Both the position numbers and the translations under genes were made by a program. A DNA stretch of 64,000 bases from Chloroflexota bacterium (GTDB lineage Bacteria > Chloroflexota > Anaerolineae > Aggregatilineales > Phototrophicaceae). Location of the stretch: contig QUBZ01000010.1 in the NCBI GenBank assembly GCA_014338005.1, positions 1-64,000 of the forward strand. The letters are read 5' to 3'. The notes below the pieces were generated by a model. The model saw nothing but the letters and a program-made list of their open reading frames with translations. It made no database searches and had not been told where the DNA came from. Below, piece after piece: positions 17,511-29,312 of this stretch. Positions within the stretch are counted from its first letter, which is position 1, and every line of letters begins with the position of its first letter.

Positions 17511-19092
17511 ACAGCTTTACACCGGGAATATCCAGGGGCAGCGGCACGAGGAACGCCGGCGGGTCGCGCAAAATCGGCCACAGGCTGGCCGGGGCCGCCC
17601 CGGCGCGCCCGTCCTCGGTGACGCCCTCCAGCAGCAGATAACCCACCGCATAACGGCAGGCGATGTCCAGAATCACCTCCGGCGCTTCGTTGGGCAGCAC
17701 CACACCGCCCAGGCCGGCGAAATAATACAGCTGCGCCGGGTCGTTAATCATCACGCGGGCATCCGGCGGCAGCATTTCACGCAGGCGGGCATACAGCGCC
17801 GGCGTGCCGTGCGGCAGGGCGCGGTTCGCCAGCCCCACCGTCAGGCTCAGATACAGCGCCGCGCCCACCAGCGCCGTCGAAAAAATCCACTTGGCCTGCC
17901 CCGCTTTCCAGCGCCGCCGGCGCCGCGCGGCCCAATCCACAGCATCATCCAGGCCGGCCACACCCAGCGCCGCCCACCAGGGAACCAGCGCCGCCGCCGA
18001 ATGGAACAGCCCGCCGCGATAGCCCGGATACGGAAAAACCAGCGTCATGACCAGGTGCAGCCCCAGCGCATACAGCCAGAACCCGCGCAGGAACGGCTCG
18101 CGCCGCCGGCGCCACAGGCCGAACAACATCAGCGGGGTCATCACCACCAGCCCTTCGACGGCGATGAACGTGCCTAAATTGCCGGACAGCAGCCCCGTAT
18201 TACCCAGCAGCGCCTCGGCGCGCGTCCTGAAAAACGTCGCCAGCCCATCGGCAAAAAAGGCCGCCGGGTTCGCGTCCGGGGGATAATTAAACAGGTCGTT
18301 ATACTCGGTGAACCAGATGGCCTGCGCCCCGCCCACCGGCAGCGGCGAACCGACCGCCGCCAGATTGCGGGCGAACCAGGGCAGCATCACCAGCAGGTAA
18401 ACCAGAGTCATCAGCCCCGCCGATGCGGCGCGCATTTTAAGTGTTTCCCGCGCGGCCTTCCAGGGCCAGAAAATCACCGCCCATCCTACCATCAGCAGCA
18501 GCAAACCATCGGCGCGCGTCAGGTGCGCCAAGCCGGCCAGCGCCCCGGCCAGCGCCCAGCACGTATACCGGCGTCTCGCACCGCCGTCATCCGCCGCGCC
18601 CATGCAGATCAGCCCCCACACGCCGGCCAGCGCATACGGCGCGAAGGTGTCAATCGTCCCCCAGAAGCGGACATAATAACCGCTGAACAGCGTTAATAAA
18701 CCGGCAGTCCAGGCATGGCGGCGCGCGCCCCCGATTCGCCCGCCCAGCCAGAATCCGGCATAGACCGTCCCGGCGTACAGCAGGGCAAACGGCCATTGGG
18801 CGGCGGCGTAATCCCCCGGCGCGTTCAGCAGCCCCATGCCCAGGGCGGCGGCCAGCGAGGTGAGCGGCATCCAGTACAGGTGCGACGGCGCGGGCAGTTC
18901 TTCCGGCGCGCCGATATACGTCCACAGGTAGGCATCCGTCAATCCCTGGCCGGAGACGACCCGGTTGGCGGCGTTGAGATGATAATAAGCGTCGGTGTAA
19001 TTTGGCGCGGCCACCAGGCCGCGCGTCAGCGCAAACGCGCCAGCCAGCGCGACGGCGGCAAACAACAGGCGTTCTCGCGTGGTTAAGCTCAA
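17494..19092 (-). CDS. GT-C type integral membrane glycosyltransferase-like protein
   Basis: A 532-residue multi-spanning protein. TTG at 19092 forms a TTGA overlap with the preceding stop. The first external loop reads NYTDAYYHLNAANRVVSGQG, with an Asp in the GT-C catalytic position, then APSHLYWMPLTSLAAA. Conserved family blocks include WGTIDTFAPYALAGVWG, LAHLTRADGLLLL and PYPGYRGGLFHSAAALVPWWAALG. The C-terminal globular segment (LREMLPPDARVMINDPAQLYYFAG) is external. Substrates unknown. It sits between two similar genes that are distinct in sequence, so the locus encodes a set of non-identical transferases. Confidence 0.82.
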   Translation of the reverse strand: MSLTTRERLLFAAVALAGAFALTRGLVAAPNYTDAYYHLNAANRVVSGQGLTDAYLWTYIGAPEELPAPSHLYWMPLTSLAAALGMGLLNAPGDYAAAQWPFALLYAGTVYAGFWLGGRIGGARRHAWTAGLLTLFSGYYVRFWGTIDTFAPYALAGVWGLICMGAADDGGARRRYTCWALAGALAGLAHLTRADGLLLLMVGWAVIFWPWKAARETLKMRAASAGLMTLVYLLVMLPWFARNLAAVGSPLPVGGAQAIWFTEYNDLFNYPPDANPAAFFADGLATFFRTRAEALLGNTGLLSGNLGTFIAVEGLVVMTPLMLFGLWRRRREPFLRGFWLYALGLHLVMTLVFPYPGYRGGLFHSAAALVPWWAALGVAGLDDAVDWAARRRRRWKAGQAKWIFSTALVGAALYLSLTVGLANRALPHGTPALYARLREMLPPDARVMINDPAQLYYFAGLGGVVLPNEAPEVILDIACRYAVGYLLLEGVTEDGRAGAAPASLWPILRDPPAFLVPLPLDIPGVKLYEIRC

Positions 19093-20759
19093 GATGAACC
19101 CGATTCCTCAATCACCCGGTAGATCGTCACGCCCCCGGACGAAAATACCACCTCTAAATAAGCGGCGCCGGCCGGATTCCAGTTCCCAAACCGGCGCGCA
19201 TCCTCATCATACCAGACGTACACCGCGCCGGTAACGGCAAGAAACTGCCGCCGCCAGTCATCGGGTGCGGCAGGGTCGTAAAAGCGCCGCATATCCGCCA
19301 CTTTGGCTGCAAAGTCGGCGGTTTCAATCCAGTGTCCCAGGTACACCCGCTGGCCGAGCGCCGCCACCAGCCGCCCGCCGCTGCCCTGTCCGGCGGCGTC
19401 GGTGACGGTCAGCACCAGATCATCGCGCCCGGTCGTTTCACGCCGCATCCAGGCGAAGGCCGCCAGATCGTCCGGGTTGTAAAAAACTGCCCGGTGGCTG
19501 AAAGGTTCGGACAGCGCGGCGATGTTCACCGCCAGCATCCCCACCAGCGCCACCGACGCCAGCCCCAGGTACAGGATGCTCGCCAGCGGGCGCAGCCTGG
19601 CCCGCAGACGCGGCTGCACCGCCCGCGACCAGCCGTAAGCCGCCAGCGCCGCCAGCGGCGTCTGTACGCCCAGCAGGTAGCGCCGCTGCGTAGGGAACGG
19701 CGCGTACAGCAGCATCGCCACCAGCGCCACCCACAGGATCGGCAGCCACCAGCGGTCATCCGGGCGGTCGAGCAGGAAGGCGCGCAGCCCCGGCACAAGC
19801 GGCAGAATAAACGGCAGATAACCCAGCAGATAATACGTCACCGGCGGCGAAAGCGTCTGGTTCTGTTCGGCAAAAGCGGCCCACACCGGATGGCTGTAAA
19901 GCGCGGCATACTGGTAAATAATCAGCGCCCCGTAACAACCCAGCGGCAGCAGCAGCCACAGCGCCCGCCGCCAGGTCAGCCGCCGCGCCGAAAAGGTGTG
20001 GTAGGCCGCCAGTATCACCAGCAGCGGCCCGAACAGCAGCGCCGCGTAAGGCTGGATGATCGCCTGCGCCGCCAGCGCCAGCGTCAAGACCACCAGCGGC
20101 GACACAATATACTCTCCCTTTCCATGTATGGGGGGATTGGGGGGAGGAGTTCGCACCCACGCCTCAAACGCCAGCACGATGATAATCTGCACGATCACCG
20201 CCGCCGCAAAGTGCGGCATCACCAGCGCCCCCAGCAGGTTAAAAGCGTCCGTCAGCCAGAATTCAATCGGCGACAGTTCGGCGGTCATGGCCGGGTCGAG
20301 CGCCAGCAGCAGCCAGCTCCACCCGCTCGCAATCGTGCCGAACAGGGTCGCCAGCCATCGCTCCGCCGGTTTTTCAAAAAAATGGGCGGCAAATGCCCAG
20401 ATCGCCAGCGCCATGCCCGCCGTCAGGGCAAACCGCGCAATGTGGTAAACCGCCGGCAGGCTGAAAGGCGTCAGGCTTGCCAGCGCGCCCAGCGCCACGT
20501 AAAAACCCTGCACCAGCGGCAGACCGGGGTGCGCCTCGTGTGTGAACAGCAGGTGATAAGCCCACTGGCCGCGACACCCCTGCCACATTTTGGCGATGTG
20601 GCTGTTGAAGTCCACCAACGCCCCGGTCGGCACGGCTGCCGCGCCGCTGTACTGCCATCCCGGCGGCGCGCTCCAACTGCCCACCGCATACGGCAGCGTC
20701 GTCAGCGCCGCCAGCGCCAGCCCGAACAGCCACACCGCAAGCGGGAATCGCCTCATCAT
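19089..20759 (-). CDS. Multi-spanning membrane protein of GT-C type, with in-frame palindrome-derived insert
   Basis: A 556-residue protein. ATG 20759 is chosen for its ATGA overlap with the upstream stop; a longer frame from 20807 would run back into the preceding gene. The external loop after helix 1 has VDFNSHIAKMWQGCRGQWAYHLLFTHEAH. Blocks around AIIQPYAALLFG and LPFILPLVPGLRAF follow, then a C-terminal soluble part (FAWMRRETTGRDDLVLTVTDAAG, KVADMRRFYDPAAPDDW). Between helices, residues near 215 read TPPPNPPIHGKGEY, unlike the rest; the underlying DNA is a GC-rich palindrome (20113-20147) of a type also found in two neighbouring genes. Probably a glycosyltransferase; activity not shown by the sequence. 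Confidence 0.75.
   Translation of the reverse strand: MMRRFPLAVWLFGLALAALTTLPYAVGSWSAPPGWQYSGAAAVPTGALVDFNSHIAKMWQGCRGQWAYHLLFTHEAHPGLPLVQGFYVALGALASLTPFSLPAVYHIARFALTAGMALAIWAFAAHFFEKPAERWLATLFGTIASGWSWLLLALDPAMTAELSPIEFWLTDAFNLLGALVMPHFAAAVIVQIIIVLAFEAWVRTPPPNPPIHGKGEYIVSPLVVLTLALAAQAIIQPYAALLFGPLLVILAAYHTFSARRLTWRRALWLLLPLGCYGALIIYQYAALYSHPVWAAFAEQNQTLSPPVTYYLLGYLPFILPLVPGLRAFLLDRPDDRWWLPILWVALVAMLLYAPFPTQRRYLLGVQTPLAALAAYGWSRAVQPRLRARLRPLASILYLGLASVALVGMLAVNIAALSEPFSHRAVFYNPDDLAAFAWMRRETTGRDDLVLTVTDAAGQGSGGRLVAALGQRVYLGHWIETADFAAKVADMRRFYDPAAPDDWRRQFLAVTGAVYVWYDEDARRFGNWNPAGAAYLEVVFSSGGVTIYRVIEESGSS
20113..20147. repeat. Intragenic GC-rich palindromic element, translated in frame
   Basis: C-rich arm TCTCCCTTTCC, short ATGTAT centre, then two G runs separated by ATT. 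It lies inside the GT-C gene at 19089-20759 and is read there as PPPNPPIHGKGE. Similar elements occur at 25287, 26888, 26933 and 28191. Confidence 0.6.
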
Positions 20760-21967
20760 ACGGCGGACTCCCCGCCGAACCGCCACCACATCCGGCGCGT
20801 CGGCCACAGCAGCAGCAGGATACCAAACGGCAGCGGCAGATACAGCGTCGGATGTTCAAATTCGCCGGCCACCGTCGTCACAAAATGCAGCCAGGGCAGC
20901 AGCACCAGCGCCGCCAGCAGCAGCGCCACCCACAAACCGCCCCATCTCTGCCGCGCCAGCCGGCTGAAGTAAAACACCAGCGGCAGAAAAAACACTACAT
21001 AATGCGGTGTGGCCGTCCGGGGCGCGATCAGGTGCGTGACCGTCAGCGTCAGCGCCAGCGTCCACAGCAGGCGCGCATCTTTTTTCTGCGCCAGCACGCC
21101 CCACCACGCCCACAGCATCCACCCGGCCAGCGCCGCCGTGACCGCGTATTCGGCCAGGCTGCCCAGCCCCAGATAATACTGCGTCACAATCCACACCGGC
21201 GAACCAAGCGCCGTATAGGACGGATACAGCGAAAGCTGCGCCAGCCAGTCGCCCAGCCAGGACGGCAGCAGGGCAAACGAAGCCAGCAGCGCCGCGCCGA
21301 ACACCGCCGCAAACGCCGCCAGGAAAGACCAGCGCCGCGCCCGCCAGCCCCACAGCAGCAAAAACGGCGCGACCAGAAAACCCATCTGCGGTTTGATGGT
21401 CGAAAGCGCCAGCGCCGCGCCCGCCAGCCGGTTCTGGCCGCGCGCCAGCCCCCAGATCGCCAGAATCTCCAGGAAAACCACCAGCGTCCCCGGCTGTCCC
21501 AGGATCATACCGCGCGCCGAAAAATAGAAAAACAGCGCCCACAGCGCCAGCGCCGCCAGCAGCGGCGCGCCCGGCTGCCAGCGCAGCAGGTTCAGCAGCA
21601 GCAGCAGCGAGCCGATCAGACAAGCGGCCAGCAGTGCCATCCAGGCCGCCGAAGCCCACGAATACGGCAGGTACACCAGCGGCCATACCAGAAAAACCGT
21701 GTAAAACGGGTAGGCGAAATAACCGGGGTCTTCCCCTTCTACCACCGCGCGCCCGTAGATGCGCGTCTGGATGTTCAGGCTGGCCTGTTCGCCGTAGGGG
21801 TTCAGGCCGTCTATCCAGTAGGAGCGCGCGCCTTCCCAGCGCGACATAAAATCGTTCAGTCCCGGATACTTGGCCGTGAAAATGCTGCGGATGCCGACCA
21901 CTACAACGGCGAAAACAACCAGCGCCACCAGCGCCAGAATCAGCTTTTGCGACCGGCTTTCGATCAT
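20756..21967 (-). CDS. GT87-type (DUF2029) membrane mannosyltransferase-like protein
   Basis: A 403-residue protein, ATG at 21967 overlapping the upstream stop as ATGA. The pattern fits the DUF2029/GT87 family: after helix 1, PGLNDFMSRWEGARSYWIDGLNPYGE gives the acidic external loop; FAYPFYTVFLVWPLVYLPY follows; ARGMILGQPGTLVVFLEILAIWG and the hallmark LSTIKPQMGFLVAPFLLLWGW then appear. Actinobacterial relatives add mannose to lipid-linked glycans from polyprenyl-phosphomannose. About ten membrane helices, no soluble tail. Confidence 0.85.
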   Translation of the reverse strand: MIESRSQKLILALVALVVFAVVVVGIRSIFTAKYPGLNDFMSRWEGARSYWIDGLNPYGEQASLNIQTRIYGRAVVEGEDPGYFAYPFYTVFLVWPLVYLPYSWASAAWMALLAACLIGSLLLLLNLLRWQPGAPLLAALALWALFFYFSARGMILGQPGTLVVFLEILAIWGLARGQNRLAGAALALSTIKPQMGFLVAPFLLLWGWRARRWSFLAAFAAVFGAALLASFALLPSWLGDWLAQLSLYPSYTALGSPVWIVTQYYLGLGSLAEYAVTAALAGWMLWAWWGVLAQKKDARLLWTLALTLTVTHLIAPRTATPHYVVFFLPLVFYFSRLARQRWGGLWVALLLAALVLLPWLHFVTTVAGEFEHPTLYLPLPFGILLLLWPTRRMWWRFGGESAV

Positions 21968-23415
21968 GAACCTTCCTCATCGGCATACAGCGTGACGACC
22001 AGATCATTAAACGCCCACTGGCCGGTTTTATCGTAACGCCCTTCAAGCCATTCCAGCGCCGCCTCTAAATCCGACCGCCCCGCCGCCGCGTACTGCCGTT
22101 CGGCGAAGTCGAACATCACCCACCACACCCGACGCGCGCCGCCCGCCGCCGCCTCGACCGTTTCATCGGCCAGCAGCCCCAGCGCCTCTTGGGTGGGCAG
22201 CGCCAGCGTATCTTCTCCGCTGCCGGGCAAATCGCGCAGATACCGCTGTGGCAGCGCGCGCGCATAATATACCATCGGCAGCGCCGAAAGTTTGTTCTGG
22301 TGAACAATGATGTCGCCTTCCTGCCGCTGTTCCTGGATGGCTGCCGCCGCTTCCTCAAAGGGCGAGTTCGGGAAGATCGCCCAGGTGTACTGGTGGTACA
22401 GGCCGATTCCGGCCAGCGCCAGCCCCACCAGCCCGATCAATCCCGCCACCGGGCGCGGCAGCCCGCCGCGTGTGAACAGCCACGCCAGCGCCAGATACAG
22501 CAGCAGCGCCGAGGGCAGCAGGCCGCGAATCAGGTACACCGGCTGAAGCTGCGAAACCAGCCACATCAGCGCCGGCGGGGCGGCGGCCAGCCACAGCGTC
22601 AGCCGCAGCGCATCCCGGTCGGCACGCAGGCGGCGCGCGGTCAGAACGACCTGCACCGCCAGAAACGCCAACATAAAAAGCGCACCCACCAGGGCGATCA
22701 TCGAGCTGGGCGCGGGGATGTCCAGGTTGACCGCCAGGAACGAGCGCGCCGTCAGCAAAAGCTGGCCGATGTTCGGCGGCGACAGCCAGTAATACGAGCG
22801 TACTTTATCAAACTGTCCCGGCAGGTTCACCAGCCAGGGCAGATAGACGATCACCGCCACCAGCGCGCCCGCCGCCGCGCGCAGCAGCAGCTTCCAATCG
22901 CGCCGCAAGACGGGAATCAGCCCCAGCGCGATTAAATAAAAAGCCGCCAACTGCTGCGTATACATCGCCAGCCCGGCCAGCACGCCAAACGCCGCCCACC
23001 AAAGCCAGTTACCTCGGCTGACGGCCTGCGATTCTTCTTCCGCCGGTGTACGAAGGGAGCGGCTGCCCCGCACGAAACACCACGTCGCGGTAGCCAGCAG
23101 CAGCCCCAGCAGCGCATACATGCGCGCTTCCTGCGAATACTGTACATGGAACGGCGCGACAGCCGTAATGAGTGCCGCCATCAGGCCGGTTTTGTCCCCG
23201 AACAGGTCGCGTCCCAGCAGGTATATCAGGCCGACCGTCGCCACACCCAACAGCGCGCTCCACAGCCGCACGGCAAACGGGGACTGCCCGAACAGCGACA
23301 TCCAGGCATTGAGCGTGCCGTAATACAGCAGCGGGTGGATGTCCGCCGCGCCGCCCGCCACCGGCGTCAGCGTGCCGTACAGCATGGCGTCCAGCCCTTT
23401 TTCGCTGAACAGCAC
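21964..23415 (-). CDS. GT39/PMT-type glycosyltransferase; start probably upstream at a non-standard codon
   Basis: The first standard start is GTG 23415, giving 483 residues. The same frame remains open upstream and encodes a clear first membrane helix (SALLLILLLALALRLVNLG) and the family motif RPLWYDEAF, where the Asp-Glu pair is the GT-C catalytic signature. No ATG, GTG or TTG is available there. An ATA at 23535-23533 overlaps the preceding gene's TAA (ATAA) with GAGG about ten bases upstream, mimicking the ATGA couplings used throughout this operon; it would give 523 residues. Other matches: DIHPLLYYGTLNAWMSLFG, FHVQYSQEARMYALLGLL and QLQPVYLIRGLLPSALLL. Either initiation is unusual or the start has been damaged. 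Confidence 0.85.
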   Translation of the reverse strand: MLFSEKGLDAMLYGTLTPVAGGAADIHPLLYYGTLNAWMSLFGQSPFAVRLWSALLGVATVGLIYLLGRDLFGDKTGLMAALITAVAPFHVQYSQEARMYALLGLLLATATWCFVRGSRSLRTPAEEESQAVSRGNWLWWAAFGVLAGLAMYTQQLAAFYLIALGLIPVLRRDWKLLLRAAAGALVAVIVYLPWLVNLPGQFDKVRSYYWLSPPNIGQLLLTARSFLAVNLDIPAPSSMIALVGALFMLAFLAVQVVLTARRLRADRDALRLTLWLAAAPPALMWLVSQLQPVYLIRGLLPSALLLYLALAWLFTRGGLPRPVAGLIGLVGLALAGIGLYHQYTWAIFPNSPFEEAAAAIQEQRQEGDIIVHQNKLSALPMVYYARALPQRYLRDLPGSGEDTLALPTQEALGLLADETVEAAAGGARRVWWVMFDFAERQYAAAGRSDLEAALEWLEGRYDKTGQWAFNDLVVTLYADEEGS

Positions 23416-23531
23416 AGCAAACGCCTCGTCATACCACAGGGGACGAACCCCCAGGTTGACCAGGCGCAGCGCCAGCGCCAGCAGCAGGATGAGCAGCAGC
23501 GCCGAACGATTATCATTAACTAAGCGGCGGG

Positions 23532-23966
23532 TTATTGATCCCAGACCTCGACCTTTTTGTTCTCCAGCACCGCCCCCTGTTTTTTCAGGATATAGACGGT
23601 GGTTTCATCCCGGCCATCAAAACTCACCAATTCCCAGCCGTCGCGGCCCAGTTCGTTGAGCGCGTAATAAATCGGCTGGTCTTTCCAGTCCGGCATGGCG
23701 CTGCCGTTAAAACGGTACTGCGTGCCGTAGGAGCGTTTCATTTCCAGCGCGGCGTACTGCCAGCCGACAGTTTGGCCGTTACCGTTACTGTGACCATTGC
23801 CGTTAAGATGTTGAATCGGTTTGGCTGCCGGCGACATTTCGTCGAGTTTGTCCAGCCATTTCTGCGCTATCGGGTCGTCGCTGGCCTTTTGCAGCACCAT
23901 CCGCGCTTTGTCAAACTGTTTGTCTTCAATCAACTGCCGGGCGATTTCCAGTTCTGGCCGCATCAT
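23532..23966 (-). CDS. Small DUF4177-like protein with N-terminal helical repeat
   Basis: A 144-residue soluble protein, ATGATG at 23966 after an AGGAG site. Residues 1-45 (ARQLIEDKQFDKARMVLQKASDDPIAQKWLDKL) resemble one to two TPR helices. A Gly/Asn-rich linker (HLNGNGHSNGNGQTVG) joins a C-terminal domain with WQYAALEMKRSYG and ALNELGRDGWELVSFDGR, the hallmark of DUF4177 proteins, whose function is unknown. It is the only small soluble protein within the glycan cluster. An 11-base inverted repeat lies in its leader. Confidence 0.75.
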   Translation of the reverse strand: MMRPELEIARQLIEDKQFDKARMVLQKASDDPIAQKWLDKLDEMSPAAKPIQHLNGNGHSNGNGQTVGWQYAALEMKRSYGTQYRFNGSAMPDWKDQPIYYALNELGRDGWELVSFDGRDETTVYILKKQGAVLENKKVEVWDQ

Positions 23967-23980
23967 AAAACTGCTCCTGT

Positions 23981-24031
23981 GAGTGTTGTTATAACATCCA
24001 GCCTACCATTGAGATACCCTTAACAACACTC
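23981..24031. promoter_or_regulatory. 11-base inverted repeat in the leader of the DUF4177-like gene
   Basis: GAGTGTTGTTA (23981-23991) and TAACAACACTC (24021-24031) are exact reverse complements separated by 29 bases. A further AGTGTTAA half-site follows at 24037. In RNA this would be a hairpin ending close to the ribosome-binding site; as DNA it could bind a dimeric regulator. No T-run follows on either strand. Confidence 0.5.
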
Positions 24032-24059
24032 AAGAAAGTGTTAAATTCCTGAAATATCG

Positions 24060-25328
24060 TCAGGCTGCCGGCTCCTGCCGCAGCTTACGGTACAGCGCCG
24101 CGCACACCCCGGCCAGCAAAATCGTCCGCGCCAGCACCAGCATCACAAACGGCCCAACCAGCGCGCCGGCGATTTCGCCGCCGGTATCGCCGGTGCGGAT
24201 GAACAGAAACGGATATTCGATGAACACCGCCGCGCTCAGCAGCACGACGACCAACACGCCGTTTCGCGTCGGGAAACACAGCAGCACCAGCGGCGCGATC
24301 TGCGCCAACCACTGCGGACTCCAGCCCTGCACCTGTAAAAAGAAGATCAGCAGCGTGATGGTCACGAAGGCCGCCAATCCCCGGTCATCGAAGCGCCGCG
24401 CGCGCGCGAACACGAACAGCCCCAGCGCCAGCGCCGCGCCCAGCCGCAGCCATCCCGGCACAACCGCCGGGCTGCCCTGCATAACGTTCGCCCTGGCCGG
24501 GTCGGCGCGGTCGGCCAGCGGGCCAAAATTGCCAGTGCGGTAGTTGCCGTCCAGCAGCGCCCACACCGTCTGGTAGGACGCTTTGTTAAACTGCGCTGTC
24601 AGCGAGGGCAGCGTCATAGCGGCATTTTGCGCCAGCAGCGGCAGATAAACCAGCGCGAACACGCCCGCCAGCAGCGCCGTATAACGCGCCGCCGACCGCC
24701 CATCGCGGAAGCACCAGACCGCGCCGACCAGCAGCGCCGGCGTCAGTTTGGTCAGCGCGCCGGCCGCCGCCGCCAGCGCCGAACGCGCATCACGTTTTTT
24801 GAGCAGCCACCACAGCCCCAGCAGCAGCCAGAAGGCCGCCAGCGGCTCGAACGTCCAGAAGGTGAACACCAGCGGGGCCAGCAGCAGCGCGTAAATCCAG
24901 GCCAGCGCCAACCCGACCGCCGCGCCGTGCAGGTGCGCGCCGATGTTCCGCACCAGCGCCAGATTGCCCACGTCGAAGGCCAGCACCACCAGGCCGAGCA
25001 GCAGCCCGTACCCGGCATAAACGCCGCCCACGCCCTGGTAAATCAGCACCGAAAGATATGTCCAGGCCGGCGGGAACTCGCTCCACCAGTCCCGGAACGG
25101 CGCGCCCAGGCTGTCCGACAGCGCCGCGATATTAAAGTACGTCTGGTAATCGCCGCCGACGGTAATGCCGCGTTCGCCGCCTTCGACCAGCAGCGGCTGA
25201 TAAACCAGCAGCAGCAGCACGCGGAAGGCAACAAACAAAATCAGCAGCAGCCGGAAATCGCCCAGCAGCCCTGTAACCGCTGCCTGCTTTTCCCCGTACA
25301 CGGGGACAGGGAGAGGGGTTTTAGCCAT
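24060..25328 (-). CDS. GT-C type membrane glycosyltransferase-like protein; palindrome-derived N-terminus
   Basis: A 422-residue multi-spanning protein. The first residues, AKTPLPVPVYGEKQ, are encoded by a GC-rich palindrome (25287-25323) and look added; the native start may once have been nearer GDFRLLLILFVAFRVLLLLVY. The first external loop carries GGDYQTYFNIAALSDSLGAP and WWSEFPPAWTYLS. A block TFWTFEPLAAFWLLLGLWW and ALTKLTPALLVGAVWC match GT87/PIG-M-like mannosyltransferases, and VQGWSPQWLAQIAPLVLL is typical of their late helices. It overlaps the upstream gene by eight bases. Confidence 0.78.
   Translation of the reverse strand: MAKTPLPVPVYGEKQAAVTGLLGDFRLLLILFVAFRVLLLLVYQPLLVEGGERGITVGGDYQTYFNIAALSDSLGAPFRDWWSEFPPAWTYLSVLIYQGVGGVYAGYGLLLGLVVLAFDVGNLALVRNIGAHLHGAAVGLALAWIYALLLAPLVFTFWTFEPLAAFWLLLGLWWLLKKRDARSALAAAAGALTKLTPALLVGAVWCFRDGRSAARYTALLAGVFALVYLPLLAQNAAMTLPSLTAQFNKASYQTVWALLDGNYRTGNFGPLADRADPARANVMQGSPAVVPGWLRLGAALALGLFVFARARRFDDRGLAAFVTITLLIFFLQVQGWSPQWLAQIAPLVLLCFPTRNGVLVVVLLSAAVFIEYPFLFIRTGDTGGEIAGALVGPFVMLVLARTILLAGVCAALYRKLRQEPAA
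25287..25323. repeat. Palindromic element at the 5' end of a coding sequence
   Basis: TCCCCGT and ACGGGGA pair around a two-base centre, then CAGGGAGAGGGGTTTT. It covers codons 2-14 of the GT-C gene at 24060-25328 and ends three codons from the preceding gene's stop. Confidence 0.6.
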
Positions 25329-26781
25329 TCATAATCTCCCGCGTGAACACCGCTGCCATTGCATCTTCATAATCCAGCGACCAGCCCGGCTCAACGCGCA
25401 GCTGGCGCGCCAGGCCGCTGCCGGCCTCCACCACCACCAGCCGGATGCCATACCGGTTGAGCGTCTCGCGCCAGCCGTCGCCGCCGGTGGCCGTCCGCAG
25501 ATAGGTATTGGTCAGAAACTCGTCGCCGTACAGGTCGGTGCGCCCGTCCACAAAAACCGGCTCGTCCGGCAGCATGAACATCAGGTAGCCGCCCCAGTTG
25601 TAGCTGTTGAACATCGGCCCGGCGGGGTCTTCATCGCGCAGATATTCCGCCACCTTCACCGGCAGATAGGTTTCCTGCGCCTCGCGGACGGTATCCGCGT
25701 CCAGCACCAGCAGCACTTTGGCCGCCGCGCCCAACACGATCAGCGCCGCCAGCGCGGCGTTCAGCACGCCCATACGCGGCGTCACCCGGCGCGCCGGTTG
25801 AATGACCCATCCGCGCTCACTTAACAGCGCGTCCAGGTGATCGGCCAGAACGGGCGTGGCCGCCACCGCGAACACGGCGATATTGCGACCGGCCAGCAGC
25901 CCCATAAAGGCCGTGCCGGACGCCAGCAGAAAATCCGTCCAGTCCAGCCGTTTGCGGCTGCCGCCCGCCGCCCCCAACAGCCCCAGCAGCAGAAAGATAA
26001 ACGGCCAGGTCGAACGGTCGTGAAAATTCGGCGAGTTCCATTCCTGGATGAAGTTTTGCAGCGCCCCGATGCTGATAGTCTGGAACGGCACGGCCAGCAT
26101 ATGCAGCCCGTAAGGGTTCACCACCAGCGCCGCCGCCGAAACCGCCGTCACCAACACCAGCCTGCGGATGCCGCGCCAGGGAATCACGTGTTCCGCCGTC
26201 GGGCGAAAGAGGTTGTTCAGCACCTCACCGGCTATAAAACCACCCAGAAAGATGAAAGCGATGGAAAACCCGGCGTGCAGGTTGCCCCACAGCCCCACCA
26301 TCACCGGCAGCAGCCACAGCCGGTCTATACCCCGGCGTTTGTACAGGTGCAGCAGGTATAACACCGCCACGCTCAGGAAAAAGGACAGCATTTGCGGGCG
26401 CGGCGACCAGAACACCGCCGCCGCCGCCGCGCCGATCACCAGCACAAACGCCCGGAGGTAAACACTGCCCGGCGACATTTTATACACAAACCACATGCCG
26501 CCGGTCGCCAGGGCTGCCGTATAAACCGCCAGCCCCAGATTGCCCGCCGCCTGCCACACACCGTACAGCACAATCTGCGCGCCCCAACTGTGATTGATCC
26601 AGGGTTCGCCCGCCTTCGTGAACGAAAACGGGTCGGCATAAATCATGCCGTTGGAGAGCGTGTATTCGCCGCAGCGGATGTGCCACCAGGTATCCGTATC
26701 CGTCGGAATCCGTGCCGCCAGCGCGAACAGCAGCGCGAACAGGATGATGGCGGCGGCGCGTTCAATCGTCAGTTGGCGCAT
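25321..26781 (-). CDS. Multi-spanning membrane protein of the GT-C superfamily
   Basis: A 486-residue protein, ATG 26781. After helix 1 comes RIPTDTDTWWHIRCGEYTLSNG, followed by INHSWGAQIVLYGVW; these Asp- and Trp-rich loops define a GT-C-like family common in Chloroflexota and Cyanobacteria. Further blocks are VFWSPRPQMLSFFLSV and GNLHAGFSIAFIFLG. The C-terminal segment is soluble and external, with MFNSYNWGGYLMFMLPDEPVFVDGRTDLYG, which is highly characteristic of that family. Biochemical activity has not, to my knowledge, been assigned; glycosyl transfer is inferred. A 209-base gap with two palindromic elements lies upstream. Confidence 0.8.
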   Translation of the reverse strand: MRQLTIERAAAIILFALLFALAARIPTDTDTWWHIRCGEYTLSNGMIYADPFSFTKAGEPWINHSWGAQIVLYGVWQAAGNLGLAVYTAALATGGMWFVYKMSPGSVYLRAFVLVIGAAAAAVFWSPRPQMLSFFLSVAVLYLLHLYKRRGIDRLWLLPVMVGLWGNLHAGFSIAFIFLGGFIAGEVLNNLFRPTAEHVIPWRGIRRLVLVTAVSAAALVVNPYGLHMLAVPFQTISIGALQNFIQEWNSPNFHDRSTWPFIFLLLGLLGAAGGSRKRLDWTDFLLASGTAFMGLLAGRNIAVFAVAATPVLADHLDALLSERGWVIQPARRVTPRMGVLNAALAALIVLGAAAKVLLVLDADTVREAQETYLPVKVAEYLRDEDPAGPMFNSYNWGGYLMFMLPDEPVFVDGRTDLYGDEFLTNTYLRTATGGDGWRETLNRYGIRLVVVEAGSGLARQLRVEPGWSLDYEDAMAAVFTREIMNG

Positions 26782-26887
26782 AAACCCTCAAAAAAGAAAA
26801 GCATAACGCAAAGACGCAAAACATGGAATCAATTATGTATTTTCGATCAGGGCAATCGTATCAAACTGTAATTTCGCGTCACATTAA

Positions 26888-26916
26888 CCCCTTTCCCGTA
26901 TACGAAGAAAAGGGGA
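26888..26916. repeat. Palindromic element, intergenic copy 1
   Basis: CCCCTTTCCCGTATAC followed by GAAGAAAAGGGGAG. Shares the C-run, TATAC-like centre and G-run layout of the elements inside neighbouring genes. Confidence 0.55.
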
Positions 26917-26932
26917 GTAAGATTCGCATTAA

Positions 26933-26972
26933 GCCCCCTCCTTGAATTCGGGGAGGGGGTTTGGGGGTGGGG
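26933..26972. repeat. Palindromic element, intergenic copy 2, with four G runs
   Basis: CCCCCTCC pairs with GGAGGGGG across a TTGAATTCGG centre, and a second pair of G runs follows. The plus strand has four runs of at least four G with loops of one to three bases (26950-26972), the classic pattern for an intramolecular G-quadruplex. Confidence 0.6.
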
Positions 26973-26990
26973 TCAAAGGGCGAAGCCTGC

Positions 26991-29312
26991 TTATTGAGAC
27001 GATGTATCTTCATGCGATTGCCCTGTATTTTCAATCAAATACACCAGCGCCGCGTCGTCCACCGGGTAATATACCCCCGGCAGGAACCAGCGCGGAATCG
27101 CCAGCCGCAAAAACTGCCCGTAAGCGATATTGATCGCGTCGGCGTCGTCCGTATCCAGCACCCCGCGCGCAAGCCGTTCGCGCGCTGCCGCCGTTTCCCG
27201 CGCCGCGCCAGCCTTGTCCCCGGCCATATGTGCCATCCAGCCGCGCCCGGCGTGTATCCAGGCGCGCTCCTGGGGCGTGATGGCGATTCGTTCAGCAGCC
27301 GCCAGTTGGTTGAGGTCGCCGTCCACCAGCGCGCCAATGATGGCCTTCTGCACGCCGTCCGGCAGGATATTATTTTCCCAGGCTAGACGCGCATTATCCA
27401 GCCGCCCGCTCACAAGCTGCACGACCGTCATGGCCGGCGCGCTCAACCCGACCGCATAAACATCACCCAGGCTCGCCCGCAGCGCCGAATCGTCCCATTC
27501 AGGGTACAAGATCGCGTCCGGGTAAAGCCGCAGCACGTCCCGGTAGGCGGCTTCTGCCCGCGCCGGTTCCCCGGCAGCCTCCGCCGCCTGCCCCAGATTG
27601 AAGGCATACGGCCAGATTTCCGGGTCGAGTTCGGCGGCGCGCGCCCAGGCTTCTAAAGCGCGTTCGGCTTCGCCCACTTCCCACCGCAGCGCCGCCAGGT
27701 TCGCCCAGCCCAGCGCGTAACCGGGGTCGAGCGCCAGAAACCGTTCGTAAGCAGCGCGGCCCGCCCGCGCCGCGTCCGCGTCGCCTTCAGCAGCGGCCAT
27801 GCCGTACAAAAAACCCTGTTCGAGAGGGTACAGGCTCAAATCCGGGTCGGCGTTGATAACCGGCTGGAGCCGTTCCGCCGCGCCCCGGTAGTCGCCTTCT
27901 GCCGTCGCCAGGCGCAGGGCGGCCACATAATCGCTGTAGATGCGGCTGCTCCAGAATCCGCTGACCAGAATCAAAACCCACAGCGCCGTCACGCCCGCCG
28001 GATGCCCAACCAGACGCCATTTCGCCATCATTGGCTGCGGCTGCGCCGGGGCCACCGCCAGCACGAGCGCGATCAGGCCGGTCAGCGCGATGGCCGGCAT
28101 CATCGCCGGGACATCCGTTAGCTGGTGGGCGCCAAACGCGACTACCCCCGCCGCCGCCCCGGCCAGCATGATGCGCCTGCGCTGTTCGTTTCCCCTCGCC
28201 ATGAGAGAGAGGGGGTCAGGGGGTGAAGGCTTCCAGTTCGCCCATACCGACCGCGCCGCCGCTACCAGCGTCACGGCCAGCGCGGCCAACCCCGGCAGCC
28301 CGGTTTCGGCGGCAATTTGCAGGATGATATTATGTGCGTGGCTGTGCGGTTTGTCCGGTTCGATGCCGGGGAGACGCACCAGCTCGCGCCCGTAAGTGAA
28401 CAGGCCGTGTCCGGTGAGCGGCTTTTCGGCGAACAACTGCGCCGCCGCCGCGTATAATTCCGTCCGCAGCCCCACGTCGCGCCCGGTAACCGTTAGCGAC
28501 CGGATCAATAATGCGGACGCCAGCGCCACCACGACCAGCGCCGCCGCGCCGCCCGCCAGCCACACAGCTTTGAGGCCGTTCGGCTGCGCCCGCCACCAGA
28601 CCCGCAGCGAAAACTGCCCGCCCGCCCGCAGCATCAGCCGCAGCCACAGCGCGCCGCCGGCGGCCAGGCCGACCCACGCCCCACGCGAGAAGGTCAAAAA
28701 CAGCAGCGACAGCGACAGCAGGATATAAACGCCCAGAACGCCCCGAATCAACCGGCTGCGGCTGGCGGCGGCGCGGGACATCGCCAGCGGAATCAGCACT
28801 ACCAGGAACGCCCCCAGGAAGTTCGGGTTGCCGAACACGCTCACCGGGCGCGGCAGCCGCTCCGACCCGAACGCACCCGCCCACGCCGCCACCTGCGTAA
28901 CGCCGAACAGGTTCGCCACCACCCCGCCGACCAGCACGCCGTCTACCAGCATCTCGCGCCGGATGCCGCCGTTCGCCAGCGCGTCCAGCAGGGCGTACCA
29001 AACGCCCATGTAAACGCCCACGTACCACAGACCGATGGCGATTCGCCGCCAGGTGTCCAGGTTCGCCAGCAGCGCCAGGCCCAAAGCCAGCGCCCACAGC
29101 GCGAAGGCGGCATCCAGCGGGGTACGAAACCAGCGCCAGCCGCGCCGCCAGCGCCACAGCCGCCAGCCCGCCGCCGCCAGCGCCATCACGGCCAGCACAA
29201 AAGCGCCCAGTTCCGGGTTGAGGATGCTGTTGAAGGTCGCGCCGATGGTCAGGATGATGCTGCACAGCAAAATGACGACCGCGCGCCCGGCCAGGTCGGA
29301 GGATGTTTTCAT
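26991..29312 (-). CDS. O-antigen ligase/polymerase-like membrane protein with C-terminal TPR region
   Basis: A 773-residue protein. The N-terminal 430 residues span the membrane about twelve times and carry O-antigen ligase (Wzy_C) blocks: VSVFGNPNFLGAFLVVLIPLA, LLFLTFSRGAWVGLAAGG, and the external loop ENKPLTG-like AEKPLTGHGLFTYGRELVRLP, with SHAHNIILQIAAETGLPGL supplying the conserved His. The last 330 residues are TPR-like helices (ERFLALDPGYALGWANLAALRW, ARAEAAYRDVLRLYPDAIL). Role: joining or polymerising lipid-linked glycan outside the membrane. An in-frame palindrome (28191-28224) gives the odd loop PSPPDPLSLMARGNEQRR near residue 365. Five bases after the sugar transferase gene. Confidence 0.88.
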   Translation of the reverse strand: MKTSSDLAGRAVVILLCSIILTIGATFNSILNPELGAFVLAVMALAAAGWRLWRWRRGWRWFRTPLDAAFALWALALGLALLANLDTWRRIAIGLWYVGVYMGVWYALLDALANGGIRREMLVDGVLVGGVVANLFGVTQVAAWAGAFGSERLPRPVSVFGNPNFLGAFLVVLIPLAMSRAAASRSRLIRGVLGVYILLSLSLLFLTFSRGAWVGLAAGGALWLRLMLRAGGQFSLRVWWRAQPNGLKAVWLAGGAAALVVVALASALLIRSLTVTGRDVGLRTELYAAAAQLFAEKPLTGHGLFTYGRELVRLPGIEPDKPHSHAHNIILQIAAETGLPGLAALAVTLVAAARSVWANWKPSPPDPLSLMARGNEQRRRIMLAGAAAGVVAFGAHQLTDVPAMMPAIALTGLIALVLAVAPAQPQPMMAKWRLVGHPAGVTALWVLILVSGFWSSRIYSDYVAALRLATAEGDYRGAAERLQPVINADPDLSLYPLEQGFLYGMAAAEGDADAARAGRAAYERFLALDPGYALGWANLAALRWEVGEAERALEAWARAAELDPEIWPYAFNLGQAAEAAGEPARAEAAYRDVLRLYPDAILYPEWDDSALRASLGDVYAVGLSAPAMTVVQLVSGRLDNARLAWENNILPDGVQKAIIGALVDGDLNQLAAAERIAITPQERAWIHAGRGWMAHMAGDKAGAARETAAARERLARGVLDTDDADAINIAYGQFLRLAIPRWFLPGVYYPVDDAALVYLIENTGQSHEDTSSQ
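28191..28224. repeat. Intragenic palindromic element, translated in frame
   Basis: TCCCCTCGCCATGAG followed by GAGAGGGGGTCAGGGGGT lies inside the ligase gene. It shares the CCATG centre and the paired G-run tail of the element at 20113. The encoded loop lies between two predicted helices, where an insertion would be tolerated. Confidence 0.6.

Follow-up and report, generated by a model that had tools for sequence, protein, structure and literature searches.

Palindromic repeats that invade protein genes in frame are best known from Rickettsia, where the vehicle that carries them is unsettled. The window analyzed here, a 64,000-nucleotide stretch of a draft Chloroflexi genome, raises the question of whether five GC-rich palindromes lying in and around three genes for glycosyltransferase-like and ligase-type proteins belong to such a family, and by what means they came to lie in frame within genes. 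The first-pass annotation had likened them to the Rickettsia elements and had left undecided whether they move.

The palindromic unit in the window and in the genome

All five palindromes were recovered where the first-pass annotation had placed them, and they share the common unit that it had proposed, as members of a family dispersed in the genome. The unit, of about 38 bp, consists of a C-arm, a short loop, a G-arm and a second G-run, with the consensus CCCCCTYTCC-loop-GGGGAGGGGG-NNN-GGGGGNGGGG, in which the spacer before GGGGGNGGGG measures 2 to 4 bases and frequent forms of the loop are GAATTC, GTATAC and ATGNAAT. It occurs singly, as an inverted dimer (many copies), and as an inverted dimer inside a MITE. 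At L042, L176, L177, L178 and L025, a further stretch of about 30 nt, GGCGACCGGAGGAAGTCCCTTTAGGGAGG or CTCAGGGGACATACGTCCCCATTCGGGTCGCC, is nested in some of the REP loops.

A covariance model of the unit, R1, was built from 17 copies. In the window it matched positions 26934-26972 (E=6.8e-10), 20114-20149 (E=2.4e-6) and 28190-28228 (E=9.8e-6), with two further matches that are weak by sequence alone, 25292-25318 (E=0.11), which was accepted on the strength of its orthologues, and 26885-26915 (E=0.23), which was accepted because it pairs with a second arm in a composite element. Of the five palindromes, three are single REP-like units and the other two lie within one 178-bp MITE (Table 1); the earlier description of five separate palindromes holds for the three singles, whereas 26888-26916 and 26933-26972 are two arms of one element.

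Table 1. Positions of the repeat-derived features and of their host genes in the window
Feature	Position	Strand	Remarks
Host gene, integral-membrane GT-C-fold glycosyltransferase-like protein, 572 aa	19089..20807	-	AlphaFold and structure matches
REP-like unit	20112..20149	+	inside GT-C gene 19089-20807 (-); R1 E=2.4e-6
Host gene, GT87-like glycosyltransferase, 422 aa	24060..25328	-	PF09594 E=1.3e-4, just under curated cut-off
Degenerate REP-like unit	25287..25323	+	N-terminus of GT87-like gene 24060-25328 (-); R1 E=0.11
Target-site duplication, left copy TATTTTCGAT	26838..26847	.	one copy only at G005 empty site
MITE, 178 bp	26848..27025	.	TIR CAGGGCAATCG; two REP arms in inverted order
First REP arm of MITE, degenerate	26888..26916	-	CCCCTATCCCCCCGACCCCCTTTCCCC present in intact copies elsewhere
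Second REP arm of MITE, intact	26933..26972	+	R1 E=6.8e-10
Last ligase codons from MITE	26991..27025	-	GQSHEDTSSQ-stop in place of ancestral stop after ...LIENT
Host gene, O-antigen-ligase-type (Wzy_C) protein with TPR repeats, 773 aa	26991..29312	-	PF04932 E=1e-18, TPR matches
Target-site duplication, right copy TATTTTCAAT	27026..27035	.	
REP-like unit	28189..28228	+	inside Wzy_C/TPR gene 26991-29312 (-); R1 E=9.8e-6

The family is far above chance level in the 4.82-Mb genome of the window (G000; other G numbers denote genomes of relatives), where a strict unit pattern gave 29 raw matches at 17 distinct places, against 0 for the reversed pattern. With R1, at least 118 matches were obtained at E<=1, a lower bound, since 150 of 930 candidates were scored, and some of them are opposite-strand readings of one hairpin. 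A genome-wide search for the consensus, proposed at first pass as a check, thus returned dozens more copies. The units kept for analysis number at least 88, several of them at contig ends, and fall into about 73 places or clusters; 70 of the 88 are intergenic, and 15 of the 73 clusters hold more than one unit. R1 matches were found in 35 of 41 relatives at E<=1e-3 (0 to 149 per genome) and in 41 of 151 genomes sampled from the phylum at E<=1e-4, all genomes being drafts with gene calls from a simple codon model and rough E-values. The order-level relative G029 contains an inverted dimer, ACCTCACCCCC...GGGGGTGAGGT, in other contexts, and a third composite palindromic repeat, of larger size (CCCTCACCCC...CTCTCCCGAACGTGCCTTCGGCACTGGGAGAGGGG...), is present at intergenic sites of G005 and G006 (L211, L214, L221, L222).

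Units read in frame within protein genes

Called genes of G000 contain 15 of the 88 units in full and in frame, the gene being antisense to the unit in 12 of the 15. Most are predicted to be read as PPPNPLPxxGEG-like or SPLxEFGEG-like peptides, and the stems of genic copies are largely kept; the unit consensus has a stop codon in two of its six frames. In the window, the three genic peptides were confirmed to lie in frame, as claimed at first pass, and the predicted insert-derived segments of the window proteins include TPPPNPPIHGK, PSPPDPLSLMAR and GQSHEDTSSQ.

The GT-C-fold host protein had no match in Pfam; its AlphaFold model (pTM 0.84) matches DPY19, STT3/PglB, AftA and ArnT in structure. 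The unit is read antisense as TPPPNPPIHGKGE, which the model puts in the loop linking predicted helices 198-219 and 236-251, with pLDDT below 50 at 228-233. The loop after FExW is 21-35 residues long in G000, G005, G006, G008 and G013, compared with 10-13 in the other genomes listed, and the insert is absent in G001, G004, G009, G010, G012, G016 and others. In G008 (L094), the REP unit is succeeded, still in frame, by a second palindrome, GGTAGGGACACGATATATCGTGTCCCTACC, which is perfect and of different sequence. The unit in the ligase gene is read as PSPPDPLSLMARGNE, which AlphaFold models as the coil behind predicted helix 339-360 together with the first part of the helix that follows; the loop at this site has 18-41 residues in the same five carriers and 7-8 in others, most other same-genus orthologues have a 12-residue gap there, and in G013 the site is occupied by a complete inverted dimer that keeps the frame. 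In the GT87-like protein the unit lies at the N-terminus and is read as (M)AKTPLPVPVYGEKQ. In-frame REP-derived N-termini are found in G000, G005 (-3 bp), G006, G008 and G013, plus G001, while the orthologues of G002, G003, G004, G007 and G009 have short N-termini without the REP-derived part.

Five genomes, G000 and its four closest relatives by identity, have inserts in all three window genes, with divergence in sequence and length. Beyond the closest relatives, most orthologues from the genus lack the peptides at precisely these places, as the first-pass annotation had expected of inserted elements, and the same peptides at the same positions in distant species, which it had named as the finding that would speak against insertion, were not found; the carriers are the four closest relatives and, for the GT87-like gene, also G001. 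Because the inserts have diverged and their carriers are the four closest relatives, the simplest reading of these alignments is insertion in the common ancestor of the carriers, with drift since then. Repeated insertion into a permissive loop is also conceivable, since the GT-C insert of G005 and G006 differs strongly from that of G000 and G008.

Length changes point to a constraint on frame. Among non-zero net changes between G000, G005 and G006, 11 of 11 genic ones are multiples of three, as against 0 of 3 intergenic ones; this tally is small, was drawn up by hand from the alignments and omits copies that align badly, among them the genic C101:14673 and C158:8981, and therefore serves as support rather than as a formal test. 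For the C91 copy, the element itself contains a 27-bp gap, and an alignment-block value of +76 was set aside as an artefact. In-frame deletions cross the hairpin in the C91 copy of G005 and the C151 copy of G006. At C158:30566, a tandem REP-like array in G006 (L231, G006:C177) adds 111 bp to a genic insert without loss of frame.

The MITE, its movement and a candidate transposase

The window MITE is bounded by 17-bp imperfect inverted repeats and by a 10-bp direct repeat with one mismatch. It belongs to the best-defined MITE set, of 173-253 bp, with the TIR CAGGGYAATCGCTT and a 10-bp target duplication; the TIR pattern occurs at 38 places in G000 and at 0 in the reversed control. Three copies have perfect duplications, two (the window copy and L044) have duplications with a single mismatch, and the other, presumably older copies show no duplication at the threshold used. 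In place of the window MITE, G005 (93% DNA identity at this site) has a clean empty site with a single TATTTTCGAT, and the element is also absent from G006, G008 and G013. Another copy, C156:19966-20138, is absent from G005 and G006, the join being clean in G005. The ligase of G005, G006 and G013 ends in LIENT-stop, whereas the G000 open reading frame runs on for 10 residues supplied by the MITE.

These empty sites and 10-bp duplications show that the MITE form has been recently mobile, which settles the question of movement for that form and not for the single units, whose movement was not directly seen. Clean empty sites of single units were sought in G005 and G006, and none was found, most probed copies of G000 being shared with these genomes; a few single-unit differences (C52:2716, C27, C91, C42:11246) look like deletion or replacement. 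We infer that the single units are what is left of inverted dimers.

ISAs1 copies in G003 and G027 have the TIR CAGGGCAATCGC, to be compared with the MITE TIR CAGGGCAATCGCTT, and 9-10 bp duplications. The composite MITE showed each of the ISAs1-type features tested, namely an ISAs1-like TIR, a target duplication of 8-10 bp and empty sites. Since the ISAs1 ends and duplications in G003 and G027 resemble those of the MITE, ISAs1 is the best candidate vehicle, and an ISAs1 transposase is likely to have moved the MITE, judging from these terminal sequences. No ISAs1 transposase was found in the draft genomes G000, G005 and G006, and a search by TIR for an autonomous element gave no pair 1-2 kb apart among the G000 places listed. 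A second MITE family (L010, L021, L023, L025, L028 and others) has ends like ACCTTGATTGCTA in its better-kept copies, resembling those of an IS982-family element in G008 (L184:13116-13928) that sits at the same gene end as the window MITE; nested loop insertions of the CTCAGGGGACATACGTCCCCATTCGGGTCGCC type occur in both MITE families.

Origin of the inserts and relation to known systems

The explanation that we regard as quite probable starts from REP-like units, each about 38 bp long, that are scattered over the genome as one family; an ISAs1-family transposase would have moved their MITE in trans, and landings in proteins would be kept when they preserve the frame. Such a process would comprise several steps: (i) the units exist in their three forms, the dimers within MITEs among them; (ii) an ISAs1-family transposase, no longer found in G000, would have moved the best-defined MITE in trans; (iii) units landing in flexible protein loops or termini would be retained if the net length change kept the frame; and (iv) the inserted peptide would then drift, shrink or grow by multiples of three, with no function required. 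The insert peptides would accordingly be near-neutral. That the inserts are instead kept for a function, whether as hairpins in DNA or RNA with a part in transcript stability or operon polarity or as useful peptide loops, appears quite unlikely to us: old inserts do persist in five species and genic stems are largely preserved, but sequence, length and stem vary freely between species, and in-frame deletions run across the hairpin, as in a tolerated passenger. Ordinary expansion of low-complexity or proline-rich loops with chance palindromes and no mobile DNA would fit a high-GC genome with proline-rich loops and units made of C- and G-runs; however, one pattern is dispersed through genes and intergenic DNA with a reversed control of 0, the stems have matching arms, presence and absence alternate at one exact site, and the MITE has duplications and empty sites, so that this account seems to us extremely improbable.

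A classical REP/REPIN system, in which single-stranded palindromes are mobilized by a RAYT (REP-associated tyrosine transposase), would resemble the present family in size, in its hairpin with an unpaired tail, in forming inverted dimers and in a copy number that is high and patchy (PMC3116915, PMC3733652). We nevertheless hold it to be unlikely, as the sole Y1 match in G000 is one domain in a large protein that shows no further features of a transposase, four Y1 proteins from relatives score as IS200/IS605, far under the RAYT cut-off, no clear family unit adjoins the gene at the Y1 loci searched, no GTAG or CGTC tag was seen, and the 10-bp duplications of the MITE copies are unexpected under Y1 transposition. 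No RAYT flanked by this REP was found in G000 or the relatives searched, an absence that is not absolute in draft assemblies. The Y1_Tnp (HUH transposase-like) domain lies in the C-terminal part of the large protein (L030:31-1851, G000:C49; also L272, L280, L285 and others), with matches in long open frames of most relatives searched; the usual HUH motif is not evident by eye, and the domain is possibly domesticated.

Compared with described systems, the family has the general features of REPs, being a palindrome of 20-40 bp, in high copy number, mostly intergenic and often in inverted pairs. GTAG/CGTC-tagged REPs are 20-40 bp hairpins with an unpaired end that form inverted dimers and are mostly intergenic, with some in-frame genic copies (PMC3733652), and the present units resemble them in all these respects; unlike them, the unpaired part here is a second G-run (GGGGGTGAGG / GGGGGNGGGG), inspection of units and flanks revealed no tag, and there is no RAYT. 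REPINs are inverted REP doublets, the likely replicative unit, with singlets as remnants (PMC3116915); inverted doublets are shared, yet here they have no RAYT and lie inside TIR-bounded MITEs. The Coxiella element QMITE2, of 150-190 bp with 7-11 bp direct repeats, has some copies in frame, one of which provides a C-terminus and stop codon (PMC5896051). The window composite is likewise a MITE with direct repeats that supplies a C-terminus and stop codon, although in another host, with ISAs1-family-like ends and REP units in its core. With ISAs1-family insertion sequences it shares terminal CAGGGCAATCGC-type ends and 9-10 bp duplications, but it lacks a transposase, REP units replacing the internal sequence.

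Rickettsia palindromic elements (RPE) are palindromic repeats found between genes and, tolerated, in frame within protein genes (PMC2229807, PMC10969869), with a size of 105-146 bp (PMC2229807). The present family also has palindromic repeats in frame in protein genes, and the likeness suggested by the first-pass annotation is one of behavior: the units here are about 38 bp long, built of C- and G-runs and hosted by Anaerolineae/Chloroflexi, with a linked MITE that has 10-bp duplications and a candidate transposase family. A literature search, with subscription journals mostly outside its coverage, found no description of this family, no ISAs1-derived MITEs of this kind and nothing relevant for literal CCCCTCTCC with palindromes. 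The family acts like the Rickettsia elements yet is a different one, apparently undescribed.

Tentatively, and with some doubt, we also consider that the REP unit may be a module that spreads without a REP transposase in MITEs of several unrelated IS families, seeding in-frame peptides across much of the phylum; its carriers would be of ISAs1 type here, with IS982-type ends in the second MITE family and other ends in the order-level relative. Since many copies, close relatives that are about 90% identical, a recently inserted MITE that rewrites a stop codon and a candidate transposase family come together in this system, both element movement and peptide neutrality are directly testable in it. 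For the annotation of Chloroflexi proteins, proline-rich peptides of the PPPNPLPxxGEG type may be repeat-derived rather than functional motifs.
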